Shown piece after piece: positions 5,101 to 47,661 of a DNA stretch of 64,000 bases (positions are counted from its first letter, which is position 1; the number at the start of each line of letters is the position of its first letter). The notes below the pieces were generated by a model, which made no database searches, had not been told where the DNA came from, and saw only the letters and a list, made by a program, of their open reading frames with translations. Origin of the DNA: a bacterium. GTDB lineage: Bacteria; Myxococcota; UBA727; JAUIJE01. Where the stretch lies: the NCBI GenBank assembly GCA_030431455.1, contig JAUIJE010000002.1:691294-755293 (forward strand). Direction: 5' to 3'. Made by a program: the position numbers and the translations under genes.

Positions 5101-7266
5101 ATGAAAACGTCCGTGTTGCGACTTCTGACTGTGCTGTCCGTGTTGGCGCCGGTCGCGTGTGTGAACCAGGAGCCGCTTCCCGAAGGGGAGCGCCACCACG
5201 ACGACGCCGAGAAAAACGTATCCATGGAGGACATCCGCGACCTGCCGTCCACCGGCGGGTTCCGGCAGTTGCCGCCTCTGGTGGTGGGGGAGCCCGCGGG
5301 CCGCGTCGCGTTCTTGTTGAGCCTGGACGACGTGGTCACCGACGTGACCGCCCAGATCGAAGTGCGGGGCCATGGCGCCGGCCAATCCGGGGAGTGGATG
5401 CCGGTGGACACCGTGTTCGCCGAAGAGAACCTTCGGGTGGCGGTGGTCGACCTCGACTTGTTCGCGGACATCGTGGACGTGCGCTTGACCGAGGCGGTGG
5501 CCAACACCGTGCTGGACATGACCTTCTCCGCGGTCCCGCCCAACCTCGAAGAACTCGAAAACCCGTTTGAGCTCGAGGAGGCCGCCGAACAAGAATCCGG
5601 CCTCGCCGCGGAGCTCGCCGACATCGGCGTCATCTCCCGCCAAGCTTGGGGCGCCCGCCCGTCGGGCAACTGCTACTCCGAATACCCCAAGGCCCGCATG
5701 GCCATTCACCACACCGCGGGCTGGCGCAGCTCGTCGGGTTCGTACTTCGCCCTGGTGAAGGCGCTCGAGAGCTACGCCCGGGACGGCCTCGGCTACTGTG
5801 AAATGCATTACCATTTCCTGGTGGCGGAGAACGGCCAAGTGTTCGAAGCGCGGCCCCTCCACTACCGCGGCTCGCACTCCGGCGGCTACAACACCCACAA
5901 CATCGGCATCTCGCTGATGGGCTGCTTCGACGACACCAGCTACTGCAGCGGCAAAGGCGGCCGGGACGTGCCCACCGCGATGTTCCAAGCCACCGCCAAG
6001 TTGATGCGCCGCTTGTCACAAATGTACGGCATCGCGATCAACGAAGCGAACATCAAGGGCCACGGCCAACAGCCCGGCCAGAACACCGGCTGCCCCGGCA
6101 ATCACATGCGCCCGCGCATGGAAGAGCTCCGCCAGCTGGCCAAACAAAACCCGGTGCAGACCCCGCCGCCGAGCACCCAGATGATCTTCGACCTCAACGG
6201 GTACCTGCCCACCGGGGCCGGCTTCAAGGCCACCAACCCCGCCCGGCTCCTCGACACCCGCAGCGCCAACTCGGTGCACAACGGCAAGCTCGCCCACCAG
6301 CAGACCATCAACATCCCGGTGCTCGGCCGGGCCGGCGTGCCCTCGTCGGGGGTGTCCGCGGTGGTCCTCAACGTGACCGTGACCCAGCCGACCGCCAATG
6401 GCTTCATGGCCATCTACCCGTCGGGCGCGAGCTTCCCCAACACCTCGAGCCTCAACTTCTCGACCAACCAGACCACCGCCAACCTCGTGTTCGCGAAGCC
6501 GGGCAGCAACGGCAAAATCGCCCTGCGCCACGTCGGGGGGCAATCCCACGCGATCATCGACGTGTTCGGCTACTTCAACAACAACGCTGACTTTGTGGTG
6601 CTCACCCCGTCGCGCGTCATCGACACCCGCAACGGGGCGGTGGGGCCGATCAACGGCAAGATCACCGGCAGCAAAGACATTCAACTCGGCGGCAAGGGCG
6701 GCGTCCCCTCGTCGGGGGTGGCGGCGGTGATCGTCAACCTCACGTCGGTGGATCCCGAGGGTCCCGGCCACGCGGTGTTCTACAAGGCGGGCACGGCCAA
6801 GCCCAACACCTCGAACCTCAACTACGCCCAGGGTCAGGTCAAAGCCAACACCGTGATCGTGCCGGTGTCGAGCGCGGGCAAGGCCACGCTGTACACCCAC
6901 GCCAAGTCGCACTACGTGATCGACATCTACGGCTACGTGCCCACCAATGGCACATACAAGCCGGTCAACGCGGCCCGGGTGCACGACTCCCGCAACAACA
7001 ACGACCCCATCGAGACCGGGACCACCCGTGACCTCACCGTGCTCGGGGTGTTCGGCGTGCCCGCGTCCGGGGTGGAGGCGGTGTTTGGCAACCTCACCGT
7101 GACCCAGCCGACCAACAACGGTCACCTGCGGGCGTACGCGTCCGGGGCTTCACTCCCGGCCACGTCCAACCTCAACTTCACCGGCGGCGAAACCGTCCCC
7201 AACGGGGTGGTGGTCAAGCCGGGGAGCAACGGGAAGATCCGCATCCACGCGACCGTGGCCCAGTAG
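5101..7266 (+). CDS. PGRP/amidase_2-type N-acetylmuramoyl-L-alanine amidase lipoprotein with three C-terminal repeats
   Basis: A 721-residue lipoprotein (lipobox LAPVAC). Residues about 180-350 form a peptidoglycan-recognition/amidase domain: RQAWGARP, AIHHTAGW (first zinc ligand near H203), MHYHFLV, HNIGISLMG, KGHGQ (H321) and NTGCPGNHM (C331), which supplies the Zn set H/H/C. It should cleave the MurNAc-L-Ala bond of peptidoglycan. The rest is three copies of a repeat of about 110 residues with ARLLDTR- or RVIDTR-type starts and SGVSAVVLNVTVT- and VIDIYGY-type motifs, as in secreted actinobacterial and myxobacterial amidases. The start ATG 5101 has GGGGA upstream. A terminator follows. It could act in wall turnover or attack on other cells. 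Confidence 0.9.
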   Translation: MKTSVLRLLTVLSVLAPVACVNQEPLPEGERHHDDAEKNVSMEDIRDLPSTGGFRQLPPLVVGEPAGRVAFLLSLDDVVTDVTAQIEVRGHGAGQSGEWMPVDTVFAEENLRVAVVDLDLFADIVDVRLTEAVANTVLDMTFSAVPPNLEELENPFELEEAAEQESGLAAELADIGVISRQAWGARPSGNCYSEYPKARMAIHHTAGWRSSSGSYFALVKALESYARDGLGYCEMHYHFLVAENGQVFEARPLHYRGSHSGGYNTHNIGISLMGCFDDTSYCSGKGGRDVPTAMFQATAKLMRRLSQMYGIAINEANIKGHGQQPGQNTGCPGNHMRPRMEELRQLAKQNPVQTPPPSTQMIFDLNGYLPTGAGFKATNPARLLDTRSANSVHNGKLAHQQTINIPVLGRAGVPSSGVSAVVLNVTVTQPTANGFMAIYPSGASFPNTSSLNFSTNQTTANLVFAKPGSNGKIALRHVGGQSHAIIDVFGYFNNNADFVVLTPSRVIDTRNGAVGPINGKITGSKDIQLGGKGGVPSSGVAAVIVNLTSVDPEGPGHAVFYKAGTAKPNTSNLNYAQGQVKANTVIVPVSSAGKATLYTHAKSHYVIDIYGYVPTNGTYKPVNAARVHDSRNNNDPIETGTTRDLTVLGVFGVPASGVEAVFGNLTVTQPTNNGHLRAYASGASLPATSNLNFTGGETVPNGVVVKPGSNGKIRIHATVAQ

Positions 7267-7335
7267 ACGATTCCTGCAGGGTCGTCGGCGCGAGCCGGCG
7301 GCCAGACCCTTTGGTTTCCGTGACATTGGGTCATC

Positions 7336-7368
7336 CCCCACCCACGTCCCCGTGGGTGGGGTTTTTTT
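7336..7368 (+). terminator. Intrinsic terminator after amidase gene
   Basis: CCCCACCCACG pairs perfectly with CGTGGGTGGGG (11 bp, TCCC loop), followed by seven Ts. It separates the amidase gene from the next lipoprotein gene. Confidence 0.95.
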
Positions 7369-7393
7369 CATCGTGACAAGGTATGGTGGAGCG

Positions 7394-8245
7394 ATGACGC
7401 GCGGTCGACGATGGTTGATGGGGATGGGGCTCGCGATGTGTCTGGGTTGCCCGGCGCCCGAGGGGCCGGACCCGGACGAGATCGACGATGTGCCGCGGTT
7501 CGACGATGACCCCGGCTGGTTGGTGACCGCCCACGCCCACAACGACTACTACCACGAACGGCCTTTGCTAGACGCCCTGGCCCAACGTTTCTACAGCGTG
7601 GAGGCGGACGTGTTCTTGAGCTCGGATGAGCTCTCGGTGGCCCACTACCCGTGGGAGTATTACGGCTCGTTGAGCGCCTTGTACCTCGACCCGCTGCAAA
7701 AATTAGTGGATAGCCGTGGGTCGGTGTACGGTGATGGGGTGCCGTTCACCTTGTGGATCGACATCAAGGAGAGCAGCCAAGACATCGCCCCGATGATGGA
7801 GCAGGTGCTGTCCCGCTACGACATGCTGGAGACATTCACCGACGCGGGGGGCCGATCCGGGGCGGTGACGGTGGTGCTCACCGGGGACGCGGCCAATAAA
7901 CAAAGCTACGTGGAGAGCACCGACGAGCGGTTCGCGGTGCGGGACAGCAACGACTACGACGCCGGCGACCCCGACGCGGACCGGCAGTGGACCCACTACG
8001 CCCTCAACTGGGGCAACTACGTGGACGACAGCGGCCAAAGTCCGCTGACCGCCGCGGCCGAGACCACCCTGGGCGACATCGTGGCCGGGGCCCACGACAA
8101 GGGGCGCGCGGTGCGCTTTTACGACACCCCCGACACCGAAGACATCTGGCGGGTGTCGGCGGAAGCGCGCGTGGATTTTGTGCACACCGACGACCTGGAG
8201 GGGCTCGGCGACTTTCTGCGTGGGTTGGACGCGCCGATCCCGTAG
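7394..8245 (+). CDS. AIM6-like PLC/GDPD-fold phosphodiesterase lipoprotein
   Basis: From ATG 7394 (GGAG just upstream) the protein is 283 residues with a lipobox AMCLGC. The core begins TAHAHNDYYHERPLLDALA and SVEADVFL, followed later by WIDIKES and DFVHTDDLEG. This is the His-Asn-Asp...Glu-x-Asp pattern of the altered-inheritance-of-mitochondria-6 (AIM6) branch of the PLC-like TIM-barrel phosphodiesterases, related to glycerophosphodiester phosphodiesterases. An upstream ATG at 7352 would start inside the terminator and is unlikely. Probable role: hydrolysis of a phosphodiester, perhaps a lipid head group, outside the inner membrane; the substrate is not known. Confidence 0.8.
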   Translation: MTRGRRWLMGMGLAMCLGCPAPEGPDPDEIDDVPRFDDDPGWLVTAHAHNDYYHERPLLDALAQRFYSVEADVFLSSDELSVAHYPWEYYGSLSALYLDPLQKLVDSRGSVYGDGVPFTLWIDIKESSQDIAPMMEQVLSRYDMLETFTDAGGRSGAVTVVLTGDAANKQSYVESTDERFAVRDSNDYDAGDPDADRQWTHYALNWGNYVDDSGQSPLTAAAETTLGDIVAGAHDKGRAVRFYDTPDTEDIWRVSAEARVDFVHTDDLEGLGDFLRGLDAPIP

Positions 8246-8283
8246 ACTCGGTTTTCGTGCCCAGGAACTTTTACGACCGGCGG

Positions 8284-8616
8284 ATGGCTTCGCAGTTCGA
8301 AGAGCGGCGCGCGGTGCCGCGGTACCGTTGCGGTGACAGCGCGTTGGTGGTCGCGCCGGTGACCCAAGCGGTGCAGGTGGAGGACATCTCCCGCGAGGGG
8401 ATGAAGCTTCGGTTCGCGGGGGACGTGCCCGCGGAGGGCGCGGAGCTGGACATCCGCATCCAGCTGTTGCCCGACGAGTCCAGCTTTGCCCTCAAGGCCG
8501 AGGTGCGGCGGGTGGAGGGCTCGACCGCGGGGGTGCAGTTCACCCGCATGAACCAGTTTTCCCGGGCCGCGCTGGAGAAATACTGCGCCCAGCACGAAGA
8601 GTCCCCCGCCGAATAG
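8284..8616 (+). CDS. PilZ domain protein
   Basis: A single-domain protein of about 110 residues. It shows both parts of the cyclic-di-GMP site: an Arg-rich start (EERRAVPRYRC, RxxxR) and DISREGMKLRF (D/NxSxxG). The rest is a short beta-barrel ending with KAEVRRVEGSTAGVQFTRM. Start ATG 8284 keeps the RxxxR motif at the N-terminus; GTG 8257 would add nine residues. Stand-alone PilZ proteins carry c-di-GMP signals to motility or envelope machinery; its partner is not evident here. Confidence 0.9.
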   Translation: MASQFEERRAVPRYRCGDSALVVAPVTQAVQVEDISREGMKLRFAGDVPAEGAELDIRIQLLPDESSFALKAEVRRVEGSTAGVQFTRMNQFSRAALEKYCAQHEESPAE

Positions 8617-8692
8617 GGTCCGCGCGGAAGTTCTATGCATTGGCATTGTTGAGGCGGTTGCCCGATGAGGCCAGACGTGGCAGAAGGGGCTC

Positions 8693-9556
8693 ATGTGTCG
8701 CTTCGCTGCCTATCTCGGACCCCCCATCCGCATGAGCGAGCTCCTCACCGAGCCCAGCCAATCGATCATCCACCAGAGCTACCGGGCCCGGGAGTGGCGC
8801 GAGCCGCTCAACGGTGACGGGTTCGGCGTCGGGTGGTACGTGCCCCACCGGGACGAGCCGGTGGTGTTCCGCGAGGTGTCCCCGGCGTGGTCCAGCGTCA
8901 ACCTCCGCAACTTTGCGGAGGCCCTGTACACCGATTGCCTGCTCGCCCACGTCCGGGCCGCGACCCCGGGTCTGCCCGTCCACCAACTGAACTGCCACCC
9001 GTTTCGGTGGGGCCCGCTGTCGTTCATGCACAACGGCGAGCTCGGCGGCTTTCCCGTGTTGCGCCGCAAGATTCTGCAGCAGCTCTCCATGGATTCGTTC
9101 AACTGGGTCAAAGGCTCCACCGACACCGAGCACGTGTTCGCGATGTATCTGGACCGGTTCCGGGCGTTCTCCGAGGTCGACCCCGAGGCCTCCCGGCTGG
9201 ACCTGATGGCCCGCGCGATGCGCACCACCATCGCCGACATCGAAGGCCTCCGGCTGGAGGCCGGCCTCGACGAGCTGTCCCAGCTCAACCTCGTGGTCTG
9301 CGACGGCAAGCGCATCGTGGTGTCCCGCTACGTGAGCGACCCGGGGACCCCGCCCAACACCTTGTACGTGCACCACGGAGGCCGCTACGAGGTCGATGAC
9401 GGGGTGTGCCACATGCGGCCCGCGCCCACCCCGGAGGAGCGCGCGGTGATCGTGGCCTCGGAGCCGTTGTCCGAAGGCCCGGGGTGGCGGGCGGTGCCGG
9501 TCGGGCACCTGGTGCTCGTCGACGAGAACCGCGACGTGCACATCGAGGCCATCTAG
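8693..9556 (+). CDS. Class II glutamine amidotransferase (YafJ/EgtC-like)
   Basis: A 287-residue enzyme beginning MCRFAAYLGPP, so Cys2 becomes the N-terminal nucleophile after Met removal. NGDGFGVGWY, LLAHVRAATPG, NCHPFRWGPLSFMHNGEL and STDTEHVF are the glutamine-binding and oxyanion motifs of Ntn-type class II amidotransferases of the YafJ/EgtC group. It lacks a synthetase domain, so it should hydrolyse glutamine or a gamma-glutamyl compound by itself. Neighbours give no pathway (no egtB or egtD). The start is well fixed by the Cys. Confidence 0.92.
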   Translation: MCRFAAYLGPPIRMSELLTEPSQSIIHQSYRAREWREPLNGDGFGVGWYVPHRDEPVVFREVSPAWSSVNLRNFAEALYTDCLLAHVRAATPGLPVHQLNCHPFRWGPLSFMHNGELGGFPVLRRKILQQLSMDSFNWVKGSTDTEHVFAMYLDRFRAFSEVDPEASRLDLMARAMRTTIADIEGLRLEAGLDELSQLNLVVCDGKRIVVSRYVSDPGTPPNTLYVHHGGRYEVDDGVCHMRPAPTPEERAVIVASEPLSEGPGWRAVPVGHLVLVDENRDVHIEAI

Positions 9557-9587
9557 GGCGGCGCGTCACCCCACGCGGCGGGGCCCG

Positions 9588-10301
9588 CTATTCGCTGAAG
9601 GCGATGACGATCTTGCCCCCCGAGGCCCCGAAGGTCTGGGCTTTGAGGCGCCGGCTCCCGACGGTGAGCGGGGTGAGATCGATCTTGTGCGGGGTGTTGA
9701 GCGCGTACTGGTTCACCGCGTTCTGGATGCGCTTGTTGTGCTGCTTGCCATATTTTTTCAGGCTGACCTTGGAGGCCTTGCCGGTGAAGATCATGTCCCC
9801 GCGTGCGTCGATGTCGACGGTGCCGGTGAGGTTCATGCTCAGGCCTTTGGTCAGGCCGGCGATGATCTCCTTGGCCATCGATGTGCCCCCCGCGATGCCC
9901 TGGACTTTGAGCTTCTGGCCTCGGCCGGACACGGTGAGGCTCACGCCCTTCGAGGAGACCTTGATGCTGGAGATGCGCTCGATGCGGATGGTTCCGGACA
10001 CCAGGTTGTGCAGCCGAGACGCGGGGAACGAAAACGGCGTCGCGCCCTTGAGGGCCTTTTCCAGGTCACGCGGGCTGATGGTCGCCACCGCCAACGGGGT
10101 GTTGGCGGAGGCGGCGAGGATTTCCTGGTGGTTTTTTTCGGCCGCCTTCAGCACCGCCCGTTGTTTTTTGAGCTGCGAGACCTGGGCCTTCAACTCCTTG
10201 ATGCGGTCTTCATTGGCATTGCCAAAGAAGGGGCAGCAGGCCCCGCAGGTGAGCAAGACCAACAGGCAGACGGACACGATTCCGGGTCGGGTCTGCATCA
10301 T
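9588..10301 (-). CDS. Lipoprotein of unknown function with coiled-coil N-terminus
   Basis: A 237-residue protein with a signal peptide and Cys cluster LLTCGACC; the first Cys in a good lipobox is probably lipidated. Residues about 35-60 are a short coiled coil. The rest alternates short beta strands rich in Gly/Lys/Ser (SGTIRIERISSIKVSSKGVS, LTGTVDIDARGDMIFTGK), which suggests a beta-rich lipid-binding or barrel-lining fold. It overlaps the gene upstream (10298-10645) by 4 nt and is translationally coupled to it. No family recognised. Confidence 0.75.
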   Translation of the reverse strand: MMQTRPGIVSVCLLVLLTCGACCPFFGNANEDRIKELKAQVSQLKKQRAVLKAAEKNHQEILAASANTPLAVATISPRDLEKALKGATPFSFPASRLHNLVSGTIRIERISSIKVSSKGVSLTVSGRGQKLKVQGIAGGTSMAKEIIAGLTKGLSMNLTGTVDIDARGDMIFTGKASKVSLKKYGKQHNKRIQNAVNQYALNTPHKIDLTPLTVGSRRLKAQTFGASGGKIVIAFSE

Positions 10302-10645
10302 TTGCTCCGGGAGGTGAGGGTGGCGCCCGGTGCGCCCGCGGGCTGTTCGACGGTGCCGCGCAGCTTTTTGCCCGCGTGTTTGGACGCCCAGCTGTAGGCG
10401 TAGCCAGCGTCGGTGATACCCTGGCTCTTGAATCCAGTGTCATTGCGAATAAGCGGGGCCAACTTCTTCGCCACCTGTCCGCGCGACCGCTTCAAGCGCG
10501 TCTTGAGCCCTTGGATCTCGTGACGCAGGCTGTCGGCCTGCTTTTCCAGACGGGCAATGACCTCTTCGTCGGACTCAGGGGCGCTCGCCCCGGTGCTGCC
10601 GAGCACGCCGACGAGCAACAGCGCCCCTGCCAGAACACGTTTCAT
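10298..10645 (-). CDS. Small secreted coiled-coil protein
   Basis: A 115-residue protein with a clear signal peptide (MKRVLAGALLLVGVLGSTGASA) and a charged coiled coil (EEVIARLEKQADSLRHEIQG). Its stop codon overlaps the start of the following lipoprotein gene, so the two are likely made together and may act as a complex. Function unknown. Confidence 0.72.
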   Translation of the reverse strand: MKRVLAGALLLVGVLGSTGASAPESDEEVIARLEKQADSLRHEIQGLKTRLKRSRGQVAKKLAPLIRNDTGFKSQGITDAGYAYSWASKHAGKKLRGTVEQPAGAPGATLTSRSK

Positions 10646-10840
10646 GTGTGCATCCTCCCCGTGCGATCAACGACGGATAACACGCCCTTGGATTCAACTG
10701 ATCTTCCCGCCCCGGCCGCGTTTCGTGCCGGGCGTGCGCCCGGGGCCGCAGGTGTGCCACGATCACGCCCCCCGCGGGGCCGCACCCGCGTCACTGAAGC
10801 CAGCGCCCGGCCCAGCGTCGGACCCGCAGGAGGTTTGCCC

Positions 10841-11533
10841 ATGAACAAATCCATCCCCTTCGCCCTGCTCGGTGCTTGTGCATTGTTGCTGTTCGCGGCC
10901 CCCGAGGCGGCGGCCCAGCGACGGGCCCGCAACCGGGTCGAGAAGCGACAGAACGCGCAAGAGGCCCAGCGTGAAAAGCGCGCGGTCCAAGACGACCGGC
11001 AGGACCGCGCGACCTTCGCGGGCCTGCTGCGCGAATACGAAGCCGCGGCCAAACAGGCGGACCGGGCCGCGATCAAGCGGCTCGACCTCAGCGCGGTCTC
11101 GCTGCTCGAAGCCGAGGTCAAAGAGGCGCACAAAGAGATCAAGGGCGCGCGCATGGAGCGCAACCAATCCGCCCGCGAGGTCAACGCCAGCACCCGCGAG
11201 GTCAAACGCAACCGGCGCGCGGCCAAGGGGCCGGTGGCGCGCGCCGACGACCGCCGGGACCTGCGCGACGACAAACGCGACGCGGCCGACGACCAAAAGG
11301 ACCTCGGCGTGGCCCAAGGGCGCGCGGGGCGGATGGAGAAGTCCCTCGCGACCTACAAGAAGTTCATGGGCCAGGCCGACGCCAAGGCCCTGGACATCAA
11401 GCTCAAGATTCTGCGGGGCATGGTCTCGGCGCAGGGCGCCCAGGTTCGGCAGGGGCAAGCCGAGCGCGTGGAGTCCAAACAAGAGCGCCGCGAGGACAAA
11501 CGGGAGCGGCGCGAGCCCAAGCGGCGCCGCTGA
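10841..11533 (+). CDS. Secreted, highly charged coiled-coil protein
   Basis: A 230-residue protein with a signal peptide (MNKSIPFALLGACALLLFAA) and then an almost continuous charged helix rich in Arg, Lys, Asp, Glu and Gln (KREDKRERREPKRRR type at the C-end). Start ATG 10841 is preceded by a perfect AGGAGG with good spacing. The composition resembles periplasmic scaffold or stress proteins, but no family can be named. Low-complexity charge pattern rather than a catalytic fold. Confidence 0.8.
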   Translation: MNKSIPFALLGACALLLFAAPEAAAQRRARNRVEKRQNAQEAQREKRAVQDDRQDRATFAGLLREYEAAAKQADRAAIKRLDLSAVSLLEAEVKEAHKEIKGARMERNQSAREVNASTREVKRNRRAAKGPVARADDRRDLRDDKRDAADDQKDLGVAQGRAGRMEKSLATYKKFMGQADAKALDIKLKILRGMVSAQGAQVRQGQAERVESKQERREDKRERREPKRRR

Positions 11534-35874: not shown

Positions 35875-36891
35875 ATGGGCATCTCGCGCAGCCGCGTGCT
35901 GTCGGGTTTTGGGTTGTGCTGGCTGCTCAGCGCGGCGGCGGGGTGCACCCTCTTCAGCGACGAAGTGCCCTGTGAGTCCAACGAAAACTGCCCCCACGAT
36001 CGGGCCTGTGTGGACCGCCTCTGCGTCGTTGTCGTCGGCGGCGATGGCGATGGCGACGCACCGCCCGACGGCGGCGTCGTCGACGCCGGTTCTTCCGGTG
36101 ACGGTGACGGCGACGGCGATGGCGACGGCGACGGGGATGGGCCGCCCGACGCCGGGGGTTCAGAGCCGGCGGACGGCGGAGCCGCCGACGCCGCTGCGCC
36201 AGGCGATGGTGGTGGGGATGGCGATGGCGACCCGGACGCCGGCCTCCCCGATGTGCTGAGCGGGTTGGACGCGGGTCTGCCCGACGTGCAGGGCGGGCCG
36301 GACGCGGGGCTCGATGCGGGCGCGCCGGACGTGCTGGGCGTCGACGCCGGCGTCGACCCCGTGTGCGGGGACGGCACCCTGGATGACGGCGAGGCGTGTG
36401 ACGACGGGAACACCGCGAGCGGGGATGGGTGCAGTTCCATTTGTACGGTCGAGGTCTGCGCCGACGATCTCTGCTGGTGGTGTGATGCGGGCGAGGTCTG
36501 CGACGAGAACTGCGGGGGCGTCGGGGTCAACGACTGTCACATGTTCTGTTACCCGGGCGCGGTGTGTGCGCTCGACAGCGGCGACAACACCGCCCTGACG
36601 TGCAGCGGCGCGGTCTGTTCCGCGACCCGGTCGGGCTCCGATGACCTCGCCGCCGAGTGTTTGGACGGCGCCCTCTGCGACGCCACCTGCAGCGGGTCTG
36701 GCACCTGTCAGTTCACGTGCGAGGACTCGACCTGTTCGGTCAGCTGCTCGGGGAGCGGCGATTGCGAACTCGCGTGTTTGGGGGACAGCCATTGTGTGCT
36801 CGAGGACGGGACCGCGCTGACCGGCTGTCCATCGGGTCTGTTGACGGATTGTGGCAACGACACGTTCGCGTGCAACGCGCCGTGTCCATGA
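35875..36891 (+). CDS. Tandem stalk lipoprotein A (DUF4215-type Cys-rich repeat)
   Basis: A 338-residue lipoprotein with an excellent AGGAGG before ATG 35875 and a lipobox SAAAGC. After the Cys comes TLFSDEVPCESNENCPHDRA, the first member of a cassette shared with the next two genes. A stalk of Gly-Asp and DAGLPDV repeats follows (residues about 54-160), then a DUF4215/myxobacterial Cys-rich repeat (CGDGTLDDGEACDDGNTASG), and a Cys-rich head with about 30 cysteines. Probably surface exposed, disulphide-rich. First of three tandem paralogues that look like one operon. Confidence 0.88.
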   Translation: MGISRSRVLSGFGLCWLLSAAAGCTLFSDEVPCESNENCPHDRACVDRLCVVVVGGDGDGDAPPDGGVVDAGSSGDGDGDGDGDGDGDGPPDAGGSEPADGGAADAAAPGDGGGDGDGDPDAGLPDVLSGLDAGLPDVQGGPDAGLDAGAPDVLGVDAGVDPVCGDGTLDDGEACDDGNTASGDGCSSICTVEVCADDLCWWCDAGEVCDENCGGVGVNDCHMFCYPGAVCALDSGDNTALTCSGAVCSATRSGSDDLAAECLDGALCDATCSGSGTCQFTCEDSTCSVSCSGSGDCELACLGDSHCVLEDGTALTGCPSGLLTDCGNDTFACNAPCP

Positions 36892-36899
36892 GGAACGGA

Positions 36900-37898
36900 A
36901 TGTCATTGTCTCGCTGGCTTCTGCTCGGCACGGTGTGGTTCTCCACGGGCTGTACGTTGTTCTTCGACGATGTGCCCTGTGAGGGCGACGAGAACTGCCC
37001 GGCGGACCGGCTCTGCGTCGGCGGGGTCTGCGCGCTGCCAGGCGACGGTGATGGTGATGGTGATGGTGATGGTGACGGCGACGGCGATGGGGATGGTGAC
37101 GGAGACTGGCCGCCTGACGGCGGCTTGGCAGAACCGTCGGACGGCGGAGCCGCCGACGCCGGTTCTTCAGGCGACGGTGACGGAGACGCGGGTCTGCCCG
37201 ACGTGGCGAACGGTCCGGACGCGGGTCTCGACGCGGGTCTGCCGGATGTGGCGAACGGTCCGGACGCGGGTCTCGACGCGGGTCTGCCGGATGTGGCGAA
37301 CGATCCGGACGCGGGTCTCGACGCGGGTCTCGACGCGGGCGTCGCGCCGGTGTGTGGCGACGGCGCGGCGGCGCTTCCCGAAGAGTGTGACGACGGGAAC
37401 CTGGTCAGCGGCGACGGATGTGACGCGTTGTGCCGGGATGAGCTCTGTCCCGTCACCACCTGCACCTACTGCGACGATGGCGAGGTCTGCAACGAATCCT
37501 GCAGTGGCTTTGGGAACTGCCAGTCGTCGTGCCTCCCCGGCGCCGACTGCTCCCAAACCGCGAACGGCATGCTGTCCGCCTCGCTCCTCTGCGAAGGCGC
37601 GACCTGCGACCAGAGCTGCTCGTCGTTGTTCGGCAGTTGCACGTCGACGTGCACCGATGGCGCCAACTGCAGCCAGAGCTGCGCGTCCACCGCGGGCGAT
37701 TGCGACGTCACCTGCGTCGATTCCAGTTGTGCGCTCACGTGCGGCAATGGGCTTTCGTGTTCGATGAGTTGCCCGGCCGGCAGTTCATGCACATTGGAAT
37801 GCCAAGGTCCGGCGTGTGGCGGCATTGTCGATTGCCCCGCCGGGCAATTGGTGAACTGTCCTGGCAATGATTGGGCCTGCAACGCCCCCTGTCCCTAG
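36900..37898 (+). CDS. Tandem stalk lipoprotein B (paralogue of A)
   Basis: A 332-residue lipoprotein (lipobox FSTGC) with the cassette TLFFDDVPCEGDENCPADRL, (Gly-Asp)n, a 15-residue repeat LPDVANGPDAGLDAG three times, a DUF4215-type repeat (CGDGAAALPEECDDGN) and a Cys-rich head. I prefer ATG 36900, because AGGA lies 5 bp before it; ATG 36888 overlaps the previous stop. The head ends ...GNDWACNAPCP, nearly the same end as paralogue A (GNDTFACNAPCP), which shows recent common origin. Confidence 0.87.
   Translation: MSLSRWLLLGTVWFSTGCTLFFDDVPCEGDENCPADRLCVGGVCALPGDGDGDGDGDGDGDGDGDGDGDWPPDGGLAEPSDGGAADAGSSGDGDGDAGLPDVANGPDAGLDAGLPDVANGPDAGLDAGLPDVANDPDAGLDAGLDAGVAPVCGDGAAALPEECDDGNLVSGDGCDALCRDELCPVTTCTYCDDGEVCNESCSGFGNCQSSCLPGADCSQTANGMLSASLLCEGATCDQSCSSLFGSCTSTCTDGANCSQSCASTAGDCDVTCVDSSCALTCGNGLSCSMSCPAGSSCTLECQGPACGGIVDCPAGQLVNCPGNDWACNAPCP
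37194..37328 (+). repeat. 45-bp coding minisatellite (three copies)
   Basis: Three near-identical 45-bp units coding LPDVANGPDAGLDAG (third copy with Asn-Asp for Asn-Gly). Confidence 0.9.
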
Positions 37899-37906
37899 AG
37901 GTCCTG

Positions 37907-39424
37907 ATGCACACGAAGCTTTGGTTCGGAATCTGGATGATGTGGGCGCTGATCGCCACCGGCGGCTGTTCCCTGTTGACCGACGACGTCCCCTGCGAAG
38001 GCGACCTGAACTGTCCCGGGCAGCGCGTGTGCGTGCAGGGGCTTTGCGTCGAGGCGGGCGGCGACGGCGATGGCGACGGCGACGGTGATGGCGACGGCGA
38101 CGGCGACGGTGATGGCGATGGCGATGGAGACGGCGATGGCGACGGTGATGGCGACGGCGACGGGGACGGCGACGGCGACGGTGATGGCGATGGCGATGGA
38201 GACGGTGATGGCGATGGCGATGGCGATGGCGATGGCGACGGTGATGGGGACGGCGACGGTGATGGGGACGGCGACGGGGATGGCGACGGCGACGGCGACG
38301 GCGACGGTGATGGGGACGGTGATGGGGACGGTGATGGCGATGGAGACGGGGACGGCGATGGCGATGGGGACCTCGTCGCGGTGCCGTTTGATGTGACAAA
38401 CGTCGACGAGGCGGCGCTGGGGGCGCTCGGGGCCGACGTCGACTTTGGGGCCTGCGGGGCGGACACGATTGTGTTCGACGGCGACGCGCGTGTGTTTGTC
38501 CCCGACTGTGTCGCGCCCGACGTGGTGGTGGGCCAGACCCAGGTGTTCGGCATCGACTTGGTGGTGGTCGCGGCGCGCAGCATCGTCCTGCCCGCGGGCA
38601 AGACGCTGTACATCACCGGCGACGCCCCAGTGGCATGGGTGGCGTCCACCACCGCACAGATCGACGGGACCATCGACGTCGCGGCCCGGGGGCCGGCGTC
38701 GGGGGCGGGGGCGCGCTCCGGGTTTGTGTGCACGGCCGAGACCGACGCGTCCGAGGACGGCGGCGCGGGGGGCGGTCACGGCACCGCCGGCGGCGACGGT
38801 GGCGAGAGTGGCCCGGGCGCGGGCACCAATGGCGGCGAGGTGACCGGGGGGGCGTTCGCCCCGGTGCGCGGGGGATGCCCGGGCGCGGCGGGGGTGTTCA
38901 ACGGCCAAATCCCCGGTGGCGGGGGCGGCGGGGCGGTCCAGATCGCGGCCGCCACGCTCAGCTTCGATGGCGTGTTCTGGGCGGGCGGTGGTGGCGGCAG
39001 CGGCGGCGACGGGTCCCAAGGGGGCGCGTACCGCGGCGGCGGCGGCGGCGGCGCCGGTGGCGCGCTGTTTTTGGAGGCCGAAGCGCTCACCTTCACCCCC
39101 GACGCGGAGGTCTGGGTTGGCGGCGGGGGCGGCGGCGCGGGCGCGGGCGAAAGTCCCGGCGCGGCCGGCGAAGATGCGCCCGCGGGCCCGGCGGCGGCGG
39201 CGGGGGGCACGGGCCAAGCGCCCAGCGGCTCGGGCGGCGACGGGGCGACCGGCGACAGCGGGCCGGGCAACGGCGGGGACGGCGAGTTCCAGGCGGACCC
39301 GCTCGACGGCGGCGGGGGCGGCGGGGGCGGCGGGCTCGGCCGCCTTTACCTGCGCGGGGTGGTCAGCTGCGACGTGGCCGCGGCCGATGACGCGCCCGCG
39401 GTGTTGACCGCGGAGTGCCCGTAA
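37907..39424 (+). CDS. Tandem stalk lipoprotein C with long (Gly-Asp)n and Gly-rich head
   Basis: A 505-residue lipoprotein (lipobox ATGGC, GAGG before ATG 37907). After Cys comes SLLTDDVPCEGDLNCPGQRV, the same cassette as in A and B. Residues about 52-153 are pure Gly-Asp. The head differs from A and B: a beta-helix-like part (IVLPAGKTLYITGDAPVAWV) and then a Gly-rich region (GGGGGGAVQIAAATLSFDG) as in glycine-rich adhesins or cell-surface hemagglutinin-like proteins. So the N-terminal cassette is shared while the heads have been exchanged. Confidence 0.87.
   Translation: MHTKLWFGIWMMWALIATGGCSLLTDDVPCEGDLNCPGQRVCVQGLCVEAGGDGDGDGDGDGDGDGDGDGDGDGDGDGDGDGDGDGDGDGDGDGDGDGDGDGDGDGDGDGDGDGDGDGDGDGDGDGDGDGDGDGDGDGDGDGDGDGDGDGDGDGDLVAVPFDVTNVDEAALGALGADVDFGACGADTIVFDGDARVFVPDCVAPDVVVGQTQVFGIDLVVVAARSIVLPAGKTLYITGDAPVAWVASTTAQIDGTIDVAARGPASGAGARSGFVCTAETDASEDGGAGGGHGTAGGDGGESGPGAGTNGGEVTGGAFAPVRGGCPGAAGVFNGQIPGGGGGGAVQIAAATLSFDGVFWAGGGGGSGGDGSQGGAYRGGGGGGAGGALFLEAEALTFTPDAEVWVGGGGGGAGAGESPGAAGEDAPAGPAAAAGGTGQAPSGSGGDGATGDSGPGNGGDGEFQADPLDGGGGGGGGGLGRLYLRGVVSCDVAAADDAPAVLTAECP
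38064..38367 (+). repeat. (GGYGAY)n repeat encoding Gly-Asp
   Basis: About 300 bp of hexamer units (mostly GGCGAC and GGCGAT or GGTGAT) coding about 100 residues of Gly-Asp; the antisense frames (Ser-Pro, Ile-Ala-Val) are shadows. Confidence 0.95.
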
Positions 39425-39500: not shown

Positions 39501-41366
39501 ATGGCGGCGAAGAAGCGGAAAAAGGAAGACGCGACCTCGATGGCCTCGCGGCAACGCGAGATTGCGGTCAGCGAATTCTTCAGTAAAAACAGGCACTTGC
39601 TGGGTTTTGACAACCCCACCAAGGCCCTGCTCACCACGGTGCGCGAGGCGGTGGACAACGCCCTGGACGCCTGTGAAGAGGCCGAAATCCTGCCCCACCT
39701 CGAGGTCAGCATCGATGACCTGGGCGAGAACCGCTACTGCCTGACCATCACCGACAACGGCCCCGGCATCGTCAAAGCCCAGCTGGGCAAAATCTTCGGG
39801 CAGCTGCTGTACGGCTCGAAGTTTCACCGGCTCAAACAATCCCGGGGCCAACAGGGCATCGGCATCTCCGCCGCGGTCATGTACGGCCAGATGACCACCG
39901 GCCAAGCCTCGGTGGTCACGTCCAAGACCGGCAAGGGCCGCTCCGCCCACCGCATCCATCTTCTGATCGACACCAAAAAGAACAAGCCCACCGTCACCAA
40001 CGACGAGGTGGTCGACGACGAGGAGTGGACCAACCGCGACCACGGCACGTCCATCGCGATCACCCTCGAGGGCAACTACAAAGGGGGCAAGCACTCGGTG
40101 GACAGCTACCTGCGGCAGACCTCCTTGGCCAACCCGCACGCCACCATCGTGTTCCGCGACCCCAAGGGCCGGGTGTTCGAATACCCCCGGGTGGTCGACC
40201 GGCTCCCCGTCGAGCCCAAGGAAATCAAGCCCCACCCCCACGGCATCGAGCTCGGGACCTTGATGCGGATGTTGCAGGATGCCCGCAATCAGTCGATCAC
40301 GCAGTTTTTGAAGAGCTCGTTCTCGCGGGTCTCGGACCAGGTGGCGCAACAGATCCTCGACCGGGCCGGCCTGTCCGCCCGCATGAACGCCAACAAGGTC
40401 AGCCACGAGGAAGTCGAGAACCTCTACAAGTCCATCCAGGCGACCCAAATCATGTCCCCCCCCACCAACTGCCTGTCCCCCATCGGGGAGGAGGCGATGG
40501 TCAAGGGTCTGTACTGGTTGTTCGTCGAGGCCAAACGCGAAGCGGCCGAGGCCCAGCAAGCGGCCAAGGACGCCGACAGCGACGATGACGACGACCAGCC
40601 GCAAATGGCACTGGATCTGGACGGCAAGAAGGCCGCGCCCCCCGCGGACGACGGCGAGGCCAAAGACGGCGACGCCGACGCGCCCATGACCCCGTCGGAG
40701 ATGTTGGCCAAGCTCGAGCTCGACGAGGACGGCGCGGTCTTCTCGGAAGAGGAAGAGTACTTCGTCACCGCCGTGACCCGCTCGCCCAGCGTGTACCGGG
40801 GCAACCCCTTCCAGGTCGAGGCGGGCCTCTTTTATGGCAAGGGCCTGCCCGCTGACGGCTTGGCCAAGATGTACCGCTTCGCCAACCGCGTGCCCCTGCA
40901 GTACCAAGTCAGCGCCTGCGCGATGCACAAGTCGGTGGTGAGCGTGCCGTGGCGCAACTACAACGTGCAGCAGAGCCGCGGGGCGATGCCGAGCGGGCCT
41001 TTGGTGATCATGGTGCACATCGCGTCGGCGTGGGTGCCCTACACCTCGGAATCGAAAGAGGCGATCGCGCACTACGACGAGATTCTGAAAGAGCTGCGCT
41101 TGGCGATCATGGAAGCCGGCCGCCGCCTGCAGAAGTTCTTGCGTCGTCGCCGCCGCGAGGCCGACGAAGCCAAAAAGCAGGCGTACATCTCGAAGTACCT
41201 CGACCCCATCGGCGAAGCTCTGCAAGAGATCCTGGGCCTCACCGACACCGACCGGGACGCCACCGTCGAGGAGCTCAAGGGCATCCTCGAGCGGTCGCGG
41301 CCCTCCACGGGCAAGAAGAAGACCAAAAAGAAGTCCAAGACCAAATCGAAGTCCAAAGCCGCTTGA
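39501..41366 (+). CDS. DNA topoisomerase VI subunit B (orphan)
   Basis: A 621-residue GHKL ATPase of the TopoVI-B family. TVREAVDNALDACEEA (catalytic N-box with N53), DNGPGIV (D85), GQQGIGISAAVMY (G119/G121) and, in the transducer part, MYRFANRVPLQYQ. TopoVI-B binds ATP and clamps DNA for strand passage while subunit A cuts. No subunit A gene is next to it. An unusual acidic insert (residues about 356-420, ADSDDDDDQ then Ala/Pro/Asp-rich and EEEEYF) separates the two halves, and the C-terminus is a Lys-rich tail (KKKTKKKSKTKSKSK). Start ATG 39501 with GGGAG upstream. Confidence 0.93.
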   Translation: MAAKKRKKEDATSMASRQREIAVSEFFSKNRHLLGFDNPTKALLTTVREAVDNALDACEEAEILPHLEVSIDDLGENRYCLTITDNGPGIVKAQLGKIFGQLLYGSKFHRLKQSRGQQGIGISAAVMYGQMTTGQASVVTSKTGKGRSAHRIHLLIDTKKNKPTVTNDEVVDDEEWTNRDHGTSIAITLEGNYKGGKHSVDSYLRQTSLANPHATIVFRDPKGRVFEYPRVVDRLPVEPKEIKPHPHGIELGTLMRMLQDARNQSITQFLKSSFSRVSDQVAQQILDRAGLSARMNANKVSHEEVENLYKSIQATQIMSPPTNCLSPIGEEAMVKGLYWLFVEAKREAAEAQQAAKDADSDDDDDQPQMALDLDGKKAAPPADDGEAKDGDADAPMTPSEMLAKLELDEDGAVFSEEEEYFVTAVTRSPSVYRGNPFQVEAGLFYGKGLPADGLAKMYRFANRVPLQYQVSACAMHKSVVSVPWRNYNVQQSRGAMPSGPLVIMVHIASAWVPYTSESKEAIAHYDEILKELRLAIMEAGRRLQKFLRRRRREADEAKKQAYISKYLDPIGEALQEILGLTDTDRDATVEELKGILERSRPSTGKKKTKKKSKTKSKSKAA

Positions 41367-43985: not shown

Positions 43986-45101
43986 TCAGGCCGCGACCCC
44001 GTGGATCATCGCGTCCATCACGTCGCGCATCTGGCAGACGTAGGCTTCGCGCACAAACTGTTGGTAGGCCGGGGAGCTCATGCCCCCCTCGGCGGCGAGC
44101 TGCTCGACCCCGCGGGTGGTGTCTTCCCACTTTTGGCGGATGACCCCGAGGTTCCATTTGCCGGCGATGACCGGGGTGGGGCGGATGTCTTTGAGGTCCG
44201 CTTCGTAGTCGATCCAGTCGTCCATCATCTGCACGAACAGGCTCACGTCGTACATCCACTGGCGGGCGTGCTCGCCGGCGTAGCGGTGCACGGGGAAAAT
44301 CAGCCCGTCGATGGTGCCCTCGACCCCGGCCAGGCGGTGGCACAGGCCGCGCGGGTCCTCGATGCCGGTCATGCCCTGGACCTCGGACTCGACCCACTCG
44401 ACCACCCGGGCGAGGGCGGCGTCGAAGATGGGCCGCTCGGTGTCGTTGAGGTCGGTGCTCATCGCGACTTGGATCGCCCGGGTGAGCTTGAGCGCGCCGT
44501 GGTCGGGGTCCCAGGTGCCGTCGAGCAGCCCCTTGATGCGGCGCTCGCGCTCGACCGGCTCGACGTCGTCCATGTAGTGGTCGAACGCGTGGTCGATGGT
44601 GGCGATGAAGGCCGCGATGTACACGATGCGGCGGTGATCGCGCTCGGGGAAGGCGGCGCCGAAGAGCTTCATCGCGAACGCGGCGCCTTTGTTGAGGCCG
44701 CGCGGCGACAAGCCGAGCAGGCTGCCGGTGCCGGTGGCGAGCTTGATCAGCCAGTGCGGGCGCTCGGCGCAGAACAGCACGGTGTAGGGCGCGGCCGCGT
44801 AGAGATTGCAGGCGAGGAAGCGCAGCTTCTTGGCGTCGGCGGAGTCGAGCTTGTCCGGCCAGTGCGCGGCGAACAGCGGCTCCACGTATTTGTCGTACAG
44901 CTTGTGGGTGTGGGCGCGGATGGCCTCGGCGAAGATGCCCGCGTGGGTGGCGGGGATGCCGATCATCTCCTCGAGGCGACGGATGCGCTCTTCGGGGTCA
45001 ATGTCCTTCGCGGGCAGGTCGAGCTCGACGACGGTCTCGGTCGCCAGCGCGGCTTGGTCTTGGTTTCCGGACGAAGCTGCGGACGGTTGCGTGGTGCTCA
45101 T
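43986..45101 (-). CDS. Class I terpenoid-synthase-like protein
   Basis: A 371-residue all-helical protein with two Asp-rich regions typical of class I isoprenoid synthases: IDHAFDHYMDDVEP (residues about 187-200) and MMDDWIDYEADLKD (about 303-316). In squalene/phytoene and terpene synthases such motifs bind Mg2+ and the diphosphate. The sequence is not close to a specific synthase that I recognise, and the DxxxD spacing is not perfect, so it may use a polyprenyl diphosphate or be a non-catalytic relative. Divergent from an RND transporter gene of the HpnN/MMPL type; together they could make and move an isoprenoid lipid. Confidence 0.68.
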   Translation of the reverse strand: MSTTQPSAASSGNQDQAALATETVVELDLPAKDIDPEERIRRLEEMIGIPATHAGIFAEAIRAHTHKLYDKYVEPLFAAHWPDKLDSADAKKLRFLACNLYAAAPYTVLFCAERPHWLIKLATGTGSLLGLSPRGLNKGAAFAMKLFGAAFPERDHRRIVYIAAFIATIDHAFDHYMDDVEPVERERRIKGLLDGTWDPDHGALKLTRAIQVAMSTDLNDTERPIFDAALARVVEWVESEVQGMTGIEDPRGLCHRLAGVEGTIDGLIFPVHRYAGEHARQWMYDVSLFVQMMDDWIDYEADLKDIRPTPVIAGKWNLGVIRQKWEDTTRGVEQLAAEGGMSSPAYQQFVREAYVCQMRDVMDAMIHGVAA

Positions 45102-45312
45102 GTGTCTCCCCCGGTCACGACATCGTGTACGCCAATGTCATACCCGACGACGAACCATTCTGCACCCCCCATGCGGGCCCGCGAAGAGAACGGCGTCACG
45201 GCTCCCGCAAAAAGCCTGACCGGGCACGAACTTGTGTCGCTCTGCGTTGAAACTTCGTCTCGCCGGCTGTACTGCGGGCGACGTCGTCACCAGGCGAGGG
45301 GGAAGAACGACC

Positions 45313-47661
45313 GTGCGCCCGGTGCCGCGCGTTTTTGACCGGCTCAGCGCCTTCATGCTGGCCCATCGCTGGTGGGCCCTGCTCGGCTTTGTCGTGGTCT
45401 CCCTCGCGATCGCCGCGGGCGCGGCCCAGCTGCGGGTCGATTTTTCCGCGCGGGCCTATTTCGGGGCCAAGGGCGACACCGAAAAGCACCTCGCCGACTT
45501 CCACCGCGCGTTCGGGCCCGACGACGACGCGATCTTCGTGCTGCTCAAGACCGACGACACCGTGCTCGACCAGGCCGGCCTCGACCGGGTGCACCAGTTG
45601 TCGGAGGCGCTGCAGAGGGTCGACGGGGTCGACGACGTCATCTCGCTCACCCACACCGCCTTGCCCACGCAACAAGACGGCGCCCTCGCGTTTGTGCCCG
45701 CCGCCCGCGACGTCCCCGCGGACACCATCGCCCGCGCCGGCTTCCGCGCGCGCCTCCTGCAGAACCAACAGATCACCCCCACCATCCTCGCCGACGACGG
45801 CAGCGCCACCGTCATCGCCGCGACCTACGGCAAGACCATCGACCCCGACGACATCGGCGCGGTCCGCCCGTTGGTCCAGCGCATCGACGACATCGTGCGC
45901 GACGTGCCCGGGGCGAGCTTGGCCGGGCTGTCGGTGGTGCGGGCCCGGCTGCTCGGCCTCATCCTGGGCGACCAAATCCAGCTCGTGCCCCTGTCCTTTG
46001 CGTTGATGGCGCTGCTGCTGTTCTTTTTGTACCGGCGCGCCATCGGCGTGATCCTCCCCTTGCTCGCCGCGGGCATCCCCAGCGTGCTCGTCATGGGCGT
46101 CATGGGCTACCGGGGCGAACCCATCGGGGTGGTCAACCAGGTCTACTTCACCCTGCTGCCGGTGATCGCGGTGTCGGGCGCGATCCACCTGATCAGCCGC
46201 TACTACGACGACGCCAACGACCTCGGCACCCACGATGACACCCTCATTCCCCAGCACCGCACCGACGCGGTGCAAAGCGCGCTCCGGCACGTGGGGGCGG
46301 CGATCTTTTTCTCCGCCCTGACGACGGTGGTCGGGCTGTTCTCGCTGCACCTGTCGGACATGCCAGTGCTGAAAAGTTTCGGGCTGTACTCTGGCGTCGG
46401 GGTGGCGTTCGCCTTCTTCACCATCATCATTCTGTTGCCGATCCTGCTCGCGGCCACCCGCGGCCGGGTGCTCGACCCCGACAAAGCGGCGCGGGAATCG
46501 CGGATCAACCTCCTGCTCGGCCGGTGCGCGGACATCAGCCTCGGCCGCCCCAAGCTCTTCATCGCCCTGTCCGGCCTCGTGCTCGCGGGCTGTCTGTGGC
46601 TCGGCCAATCGGTGGTGCTCGACAACACCGTGAGCGAGCTGCTCAAGCCCGAGCACCCCACCACCCAGGCTGGCCGCCTCGTCGACAAAAAGCTCGGCGG
46701 CATCGTGGCGCTGGAGGTGCACCTCAAGGGGCCGCCCGGTTCATTTGTTCAGCCCGACGTGCTGCGCGCGCTGGACGCGATGGAGCGCGCCGCCCAGGAG
46801 GAGCCCGCGGTCCGCGCGGTGCAAAGCCCCGCCTCGTTGGTGCGCGCGCTCAACCAGGGCGTGGTCGGCGAAGACGCGATTCCCGACGAGCGCAACGTCG
46901 TGACCCAGCTTCTTTTCCTCGCCGAGGGCCGGCCCGAGGTCTCGCGGGTACTCACCGCCGACAAGAGCGAAGCCCGCCTGTCGATCCGGGTGCGCGACAT
47001 CGGCGGGCGCGCCTTCATCGCCCTGCGGGACCGCTTGGCCAAGCGCTTTGACGAGGTGCTCGCCGCGGTGCCGGACAAGGACCGCCCGACGTTGGTCTTC
47101 ACCGGCACCCCGCTGTCGGCCTACGTCGGCATCAACGCGTTGAGCAGCGATTTGCGCAACAGCGTGAGCGTGGCGTTCTTGGTCATCATCCTGATCATTT
47201 CCTTTATTTTCCGGTCGCCTAGGGTTGGGCTGGTCGCCTTCTTGCCCAACCTCTTGCCCCTCGCGGTCGGCTACGCCGCGCTCGCGGTGTTCGACTGGAA
47301 ACTCGAGCCCGGCCCGGCGGTGGTCTTCGTGGTCGCCTTAGGGATCGCCGTCGACGACACGATTCACTTGTTGGTGCGCGTCTTCGAACATCAATCCCGC
47401 GGTGAGCCCCTCAAGCTCGCCATCCGCAACGCGGTCATCCGCGCTGGACGACCGGTCATTATCACCACCGTCATTTTGACCGCCGGTTTCCTCGTCAACG
47501 TGCAAAGTTCGTTTCCGACCAATGCGCGTGTCGGTGCATTGGGTGCGTTGGTGATCTTCGTGGCGCTGCTCTGTGACCTTTTCGTCCTTCCCCCCTTCCT
47601 GCTGATCTTTGGCGCAAAAAGAGAGGGCAACAGTGTTCCCAAACACAGTCTCCGATCGTAA
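45313..47661 (+). CDS. RND/MMPL-family lipid exporter (HpnN-like)
   Basis: A 782-residue protein from GTG 45313 with twelve hydrophobic helices in two halves, each with one transmembrane helix followed by a periplasmic loop and then five helices; total length is normal for MMPL/RND lipid transporters. Conserved marks are LLPVIAVSGAIHLISRY and VFVVALGIAVDDTIHLLVR, which carry the Asp/His pair of the proton pathway. HpnN members move hopanoids or other lipids to the outer membrane. Divergently placed to the terpenoid-synthase-like gene. The longer upstream frame lacks support as part of the protein. Confidence 0.88.
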   Translation: MRPVPRVFDRLSAFMLAHRWWALLGFVVVSLAIAAGAAQLRVDFSARAYFGAKGDTEKHLADFHRAFGPDDDAIFVLLKTDDTVLDQAGLDRVHQLSEALQRVDGVDDVISLTHTALPTQQDGALAFVPAARDVPADTIARAGFRARLLQNQQITPTILADDGSATVIAATYGKTIDPDDIGAVRPLVQRIDDIVRDVPGASLAGLSVVRARLLGLILGDQIQLVPLSFALMALLLFFLYRRAIGVILPLLAAGIPSVLVMGVMGYRGEPIGVVNQVYFTLLPVIAVSGAIHLISRYYDDANDLGTHDDTLIPQHRTDAVQSALRHVGAAIFFSALTTVVGLFSLHLSDMPVLKSFGLYSGVGVAFAFFTIIILLPILLAATRGRVLDPDKAARESRINLLLGRCADISLGRPKLFIALSGLVLAGCLWLGQSVVLDNTVSELLKPEHPTTQAGRLVDKKLGGIVALEVHLKGPPGSFVQPDVLRALDAMERAAQEEPAVRAVQSPASLVRALNQGVVGEDAIPDERNVVTQLLFLAEGRPEVSRVLTADKSEARLSIRVRDIGGRAFIALRDRLAKRFDEVLAAVPDKDRPTLVFTGTPLSAYVGINALSSDLRNSVSVAFLVIILIISFIFRSPRVGLVAFLPNLLPLAVGYAALAVFDWKLEPGPAVVFVVALGIAVDDTIHLLVRVFEHQSRGEPLKLAIRNAVIRAGRPVIITTVILTAGFLVNVQSSFPTNARVGALGALVIFVALLCDLFVLPPFLLIFGAKREGNSVPKHSLRS

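Follow-up and report, generated by a model that had tools for sequence, protein, structure and literature searches.

The window analyzed here, a 64,000-nucleotide stretch of contig JAUIJE010000002.1 (G000:C16:691294-755293) from a 7.7 Mb genome (28 contigs, 96.9% complete), encodes a 371-residue protein that we read, with moderate confidence, as a divergent, soluble class I isoprenoid-diphosphate enzyme whose linkage to a pair of BagA/BagB-like ATPases (BagAB) is ancestral, the MMPL-type exporter gene next to it being a chance neighbour at this locus. The gene and the two motifs on which the argument turns are the following:

45101-43986, minus strand: divergent class I terpenoid-synthase-fold protein, 371 residues (open reading frame with ATG start; AlphaFold2 model, fold matches and 22-row alignment)
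44580-44594, minus strand: first Asp motif, D170-H171-x-x-D174, at the C-terminal end of helix 153-175 (alignment; DSSP on the model)
44196-44231, minus strand: second Asp motif, Q291xxD294D295xxD298xxxD302, at the end of helix 277-297 and followed by R307 and T309 (alignment and hhalign)

The sequence GGGGGAG sits 4 nt upstream of the ATG. An AlphaFold2 model built with the window protein and 21 natural relatives was all-helical, with a mean predicted local distance difference test score of 87.4 and a predicted template modelling score of 0.85. Structural comparison using VIA-align returned epi-isozizaene synthase as the best match (8v3k; Z = 16.6, root-mean-square deviation 4.4, 264 residues aligned, 10% identity); other cyclases came next, and heptaprenyl, hexaprenyl and octaprenyl synthases scored Z of about 14-15. 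Helical models often give Z = 13-14 without kinship, a level that the top match exceeds. As far as their titles tell, the 50 entries listed, SVS_A2 and Cop4 among them, are terpene cyclases or prenyl-diphosphate synthases. The PDB rows listed by Foldseek fall in the same class, with prenyl-diphosphate synthases and CrtM-like enzymes alongside class I terpene cyclases; the best E was 2.9e-3, at a probability of 1.00. The predicted structure, these fold matches and the intact Asp motifs bear out the first-pass annotation of the protein as class I terpenoid-synthase-like, and its computed fold is that of the class I terpenoid synthases.

The two Asp-rich motifs that had been noted in the single protein were confirmed across the family. 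In the alignment of the window protein with its 21 natural relatives, which diverge from it by up to 58%, D170, H171, D174, H175, E240, R256, Q291, D294, D295, D298, D302, R307 and T309 are invariant (22/22 rows), such that no metal-binding Asp is lost in any aligned relative, the loss that had been named as refuting the first-pass proposal. A sister family of three proteins (L015, L016 and L017), with about 18-24% identity to the synthase family and encoded in three of the synthase-bearing genomes, has the same invariant Asp pattern, and D170, D174, D294, D295, D298, D302, R256 and R307 were also constant in 9/9 rows of an alignment that includes it. No hydropathy segment above 1.6 was found in the window protein (highest 19-residue mean 1.28); this absence of membrane segments argues against a UbiA-type membrane prenyltransferase, which we ruled out, and the protein is predicted to be soluble.

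At the level of sequence, the protein could not be placed in a named family. Searches gave no Pfam and no NCBIfam family at E ≤ 5, and PDB sequence searches started from the single protein, from nine rows or from 22 rows found no relative; matches to T4 lysozyme and to an OTU protein were dismissed as chance. The earlier statement that it matches no terpene synthase group is thus upheld, and the protein is outside every named family tested, yet has the fold and motif pattern of the superfamily. A profile search of the window's phylum placed the synthase in 6/195 genomes, a seventh match (G189; E = 7.6e-4, 18.6 bits, covering part of the protein) being dropped as chance. Scanning the genomes of 84,980 species with two short peptide patterns, which detect fairly close relatives only, gave 21 related loci (L036-L056), all from metagenome-assembled genomes titled Myxococcales, Myxococcota, Polyangiaceae, Byssovorax or deltaproteobacteria, and the phage and plasmid collections searched contained no match. 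In the collections searched, the family is restricted to some Myxococcota. No curated model covers it, so profile-based genome mining would miss this class I family, which suggests that uncultured Myxococcota make an isoprenoid that is still uncharacterised. The window genome also encodes two polyprenyl synthases, a possible source of substrate, and one squalene/phytoene synthase (SQS/PSY) of the CrtB-like kind, and a profile search of it found no cyclase of family PF19086.

The conserved partner of the synthase gene became apparent in the related loci. Two tandem P-loop ATPases of the ArsA/Get3 kind adjoin it in 15 of 21 (L036-L039, L041-L047, L050, L052, L053 and L056), and their best NCBIfam models are BagA (score 65.3, cut-off 400) and BagB (score 155, cut-off 521), both cut-offs being far from reached. 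The order is BagA-BagB-synthase in four loci and synthase-BagA-BagB in eleven, and the genes mostly overlap by 4 bp or sit 3 bp or a few bases apart, the synthase starts in L036 and L039 being less certain. BagAB accompanies the synthase in the three deepest rows of the synthase tree, the L036-L039 clade has the pair in the other order, and the window protein groups with that clade and five rows lacking the pair (support 100/99). The three BagAB label states need 4 changes on this tree, compared with a mean of 11.0 after shuffling. The simplest reading is that the link between BagAB and the synthase is ancestral and was lost at least once or twice, including in the window lineage, the number of losses being unsure because inner forks of the tree are partly unsupported.

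The synthase-linked ATPases also form a group of their own. In a BagB tree from trimmed open reading frames, which took in 12 of the 15 synthase-linked rows, 8 of 11 unlinked rows and 7 rows linked to olefin (ole) genes, all 12 synthase-linked rows lie on one side of a branch (100/100), while 8/8 unlinked rows (97/88) and 7/7 ole-linked rows (94/90) make up a second and a third group; a tree from untrimmed frames with 15 synthase-linked rows agrees (96/89). The two BagAB tandems of the window genome, on contig C8, fall outside the synthase-linked clade and do not adjoin the synthase gene. A motif search for a second synthase-like neighbour of general BagAB pairs (L079-L090) found none, and the sister-family loci have neither BagAB nor ole alongside within the stretches read. 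Mycobacterial BagAB has been reported in connection with glycerol and with tolerance of, or protection from, nitric oxide, in excerpts that mention no synthase link (PMC10597346), and its biochemical role is described as open, with "unknown substrates", in a passage of PMC12216072. Open-access literature, a body of text in which most subscription journals are lacking, yielded no paper on the synthase, BagAB and Ole together.

From these data, we consider the synthase-like protein probably to be an active, if divergent, isoprenoid-diphosphate enzyme. Catalysis, the substrate, and the handling or delivery of a very hydrophobic product by BagAB, and in some species Ole, are inferred. In the most likely mechanism, the two Asp motifs would hold Mg2+, which would bind the diphosphate of a C15-C20 prenyl substrate and aid its removal by ionisation; the resulting carbocation could then couple two chains, in the manner of squalene and phytoene synthases, or cyclise one. 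In the relatives, the BagAB pair might handle the insoluble product, as might the neighbouring Ole pathway in some species. A protein that retains fold and Asp residues yet acts as a carrier or regulator, binding prenyl diphosphates or hydrophobic lipids for the BagAB ATPases, would be in keeping with how very little the sequence resembles known enzyme families and with the tight coupling to Get3/ArsA-like ATPases in 15/21 loci, the known kin of which bind hydrophobic clients. We regard such a role as unlikely, since the invariance of all six Asp and of the conserved Arg across 22 proteins as divergent as these suggests catalysis over binding alone.

Assigning the proposed enzyme to a branch of the superfamily is less straightforward. 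When the family (25 rows) was compared by hhalign with six SQS/PSY proteins of these genomes, both motifs were spanned in register, with D170/D174 on DxxxD and D294/D298/D302/R307 on NxxxDxxxD....R (E = 0.017, probability 2.7%), so the motif register appears, weakly, nearest to squalene and phytoene synthases. A true coupling enzyme from an outlying branch of PF00494 (SQS_PSY), with a C30 or C40 hydrocarbon product, would fit this register, the spacing of 128 residues from D170 to D298, the CrtM-like structures among the Foldseek matches and the weak PF00494 matches over the first motif in two members. We nevertheless give this proposal a low probability: the highest structural Z goes to terpene cyclases, about 100 extra residues precede the first motif (query 157 on template 77 in hhalign), a CrtB-like phytoene synthase is already present in the window genome, and the window protein itself has no PF00494 match.

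Several results weigh against the preferred reading of a divergent class I enzyme with an ancestral BagAB link. Foldseek gave no match at E ≤ 0.001, and its TM-scores to the query were 0.30-0.46. The hhalign scores are weak, not only in the SQS/PSY comparison but also against 12 polyprenyl synthases of the farnesyl diphosphate synthase type, where the second motif alone aligned (E = 0.0013, probability 18%), and no meaningful alignment was obtained with 11 terpene-cyclase domains. PF00494 matches just 2/22 members (best 21.1 bits, cut-off 26). The RY motif, a feature of canonical bacterial cyclases, was not found by eye in the synthase-like protein, and PF19086, the model for these cyclases, leaves the window protein unmatched and hits 2/22 members at best E = 0.3. 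Finally, neither the window locus nor 5 other relatives have BagAB next to the synthase gene.

Gene neighbourhoods also link BagAB to olefin biosynthesis genes. In five synthase loci (L041, L042, L043, L046 and L053), a full set of ole genes in the order oleD-C-B-A is convergent with BagAB; in L044, oleD lies at the contig end. For L042, OleA scored above its NCBIfam cut-off and OleD below its own; OleC was above the cut-off of a general ligase model but below those for olefin beta-lactone synthetases, and OleB is named only by haloalkane-dehalogenase-type kinship and position. OleB decarboxylates beta-lactones to olefins (excerpt of PMC7064751), and oleABCD occurs in deltaproteobacteria (excerpt of PMC7158056). 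The window genome has oleA above cut-off in a full oleDCBA cluster on contig C10, and the 17.4 kb read there contain no BagAB. Overall, OleA exceeded its cut-off in 34/195 genomes, comprising 5/6 synthase genomes (the exception being G020) and 29/189 others (Fisher p = 6.5e-4), an association to which we give little weight because the synthase genomes are, for the most part, closely related.

The ole genes also meet BagAB where there is no synthase. Of the 29 OleA genomes without it, 24 were read, and in 8/24 a BagA gene lies directly beyond the ole genes (L150, L151, L154, L156, L158, L159, L161 and L165), with BagB too in seven and the eighth cut by a contig end; in a ninth genome, BagA lies about 6 kb upstream of oleA. 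All eight cases belong to a single family (three genera), and several of the contigs end early, making the count neither independent nor complete. The BagB proteins at these loci form a clade distinct from that of the synthase-linked ones, and thus two BagAB clades came to adjoin ole genes. Gene position therefore suggests a role for BagAB in making hydrocarbons or lipids. A bolder proposal, which we put forward tentatively and think improbable as a whole, is that the synthase represents a new class I branch whose water-insoluble product is taken up as it is made by a dedicated BagAB, and that myxococcotal BagABs generally carry biosynthetic hydrocarbons, one clade with the synthase and another with Ole. 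If true, Get3-type ATPases would have lipids or hydrocarbons as clients in place of tail-anchored proteins; a dedicated biosynthetic enzyme, together with the independent link of another BagAB clade to the olefin pathway, makes for a testable idea of what BagAB-type ATPases carry.

The neighbouring features at the window locus are:

45313-47661, plus strand: HAE3/MMPL-type resistance-nodulation-division (RND) transporter, 782 residues (GTG start; Pfam MMPL), a neighbour judged to be outside any conserved module
45102-45312: 211-bp gap between the divergent synthase and exporter genes (sequence), not a conserved unit

Both open reading frames, their divergent orientation and the 211-bp gap were confirmed, the GTG at 45313 being used as the exporter start in place of the earliest start given by the program (TTG 45232). 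The first-pass annotation had placed the transporter in the MMPL/HpnN type. Its MMPL membership stands (PF03176, 97.3 bits in two stretches, cut-off 20.5; 11 hydrophobic segments in a simple scan), but the HpnN label was too specific, as the two HpnN models of NCBIfam score only 72.3 (cut-off 751.85) and 30.6 (cut-off 1100). The best NCBIfam model is TIGR00921 (HAE3; 159.1 bits, below its cut-off of 351.9), and the exporter is a generic HAE3/MMPL RND transporter. A hopanoid reading was rejected on these scores and on the lack of a squalene-hopene cyclase N-domain (PF13249) match in the window genome; this search did not extend to PF13243.

It had further been proposed that the two genes form a small module, the synthase making an isoprenoid lipid and the divergent MMPL protein exporting it to the outer membrane, possibly as a lineage-specific pairing. 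Apart from the divergent arrangement across the 211-bp gap, the proposal can draw on a carotenoid cluster of the window genome, where the gene for an MMPL paralogue of 31% identity overlaps that for a lycopene cyclase; genes for MMPL proteins can thus lie among isoprenoid genes in this organism. We nonetheless judge the module very improbable. Exporter homologues were found beside the synthase in 0/21 related loci, six of which offer less than 2 kb on one side, and the synthase was found in the 1.5 kb flanks of 0/13 loci of other exporter relatives. At E ≤ 1e-40, such relatives occur in 5/14 genomes of the whole-genome search, the window genome included, and are absent from 5/5 other synthase-bearing genomes; the failure to match the HpnN models and the absence of the cyclase N-domain point the same way. 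Lack of conserved pairing was what the annotation itself had held to refute the module, and the relatives show none. The exporter therefore seems to be a chance neighbour. A scan of 44950-45450 gave no sigma-70-type promoter match, which is weak evidence against a shared promoter in the gap. More generally, a plausible two-gene story from one genome can fail when relatives are examined.

The carotenoid cluster itself (G000:C20:38000-57000, L138) runs over positions 5301-11332 with lycopene cyclase, MMPL (4-bp overlap), phytoene desaturase (crtI homologue) and phytoene synthase (crtB homologue) genes, and makes a stronger candidate for the pairing of isoprenoid and MMPL genes in this genome than do the synthase and exporter. 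Elsewhere in the window, 39501-41366 (plus strand) encodes a homologue of the topoisomerase VI B subunit, here in a bacterial genome (Topo-VIb_trans, 174 bits), and lipoprotein-like open reading frames at 37871-39424 (plus strand) and 35875-37898 have long Gly-Asp repeats encoded by a short tandem DNA repeat, the former being without a match in a Pfam search.

Compared with known systems, the exporter shares the MMPL/RND superfamily with the hopanoid transporter HpnN but differs from it in its model scores and in residing in a genome without the hopanoid cyclase N-domain. The myxococcotal ATPase pairs resemble BagA/BagB of Mycobacterium tuberculosis (Rv3679/Rv3680) in being tandem Get3/ArsA-type P-loop proteins with BagA and BagB as their best models, while scoring far below the model cut-offs. 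For the synthase-like protein, likeness to class I terpene cyclases (epi-isozizaene, aristolochene and T-muurolol synthases) lies in the all-helical fold across residues 35-371, with the first Asp motif ending one helix and the second metal motif on the facing helix; it differs in having DDxxDxxxD in place of the NSE/DTE triad of those enzymes, (N,D)DxxSxxxE, and in its 10% identity and lack of a Pfam match or profile alignment. With squalene and phytoene synthases (PF00494; HpnC/HpnD/CrtB/CrtM) it may share, in the same register, a DxxxD first motif and a second motif ending in DxxxD....R, set against a longer N-terminal part, the unmatched window protein and the low hhalign probability. The first motif of trans-isoprenyl diphosphate synthases (PF00348) is DDxx(xx)D, whereas that of the synthase-like protein is DHxxDH, and only the second motif aligns; that motif, QxxDDxxDxxxD, is nevertheless the point of likeness, and octaprenyl and heptaprenyl synthases are among the structural matches.

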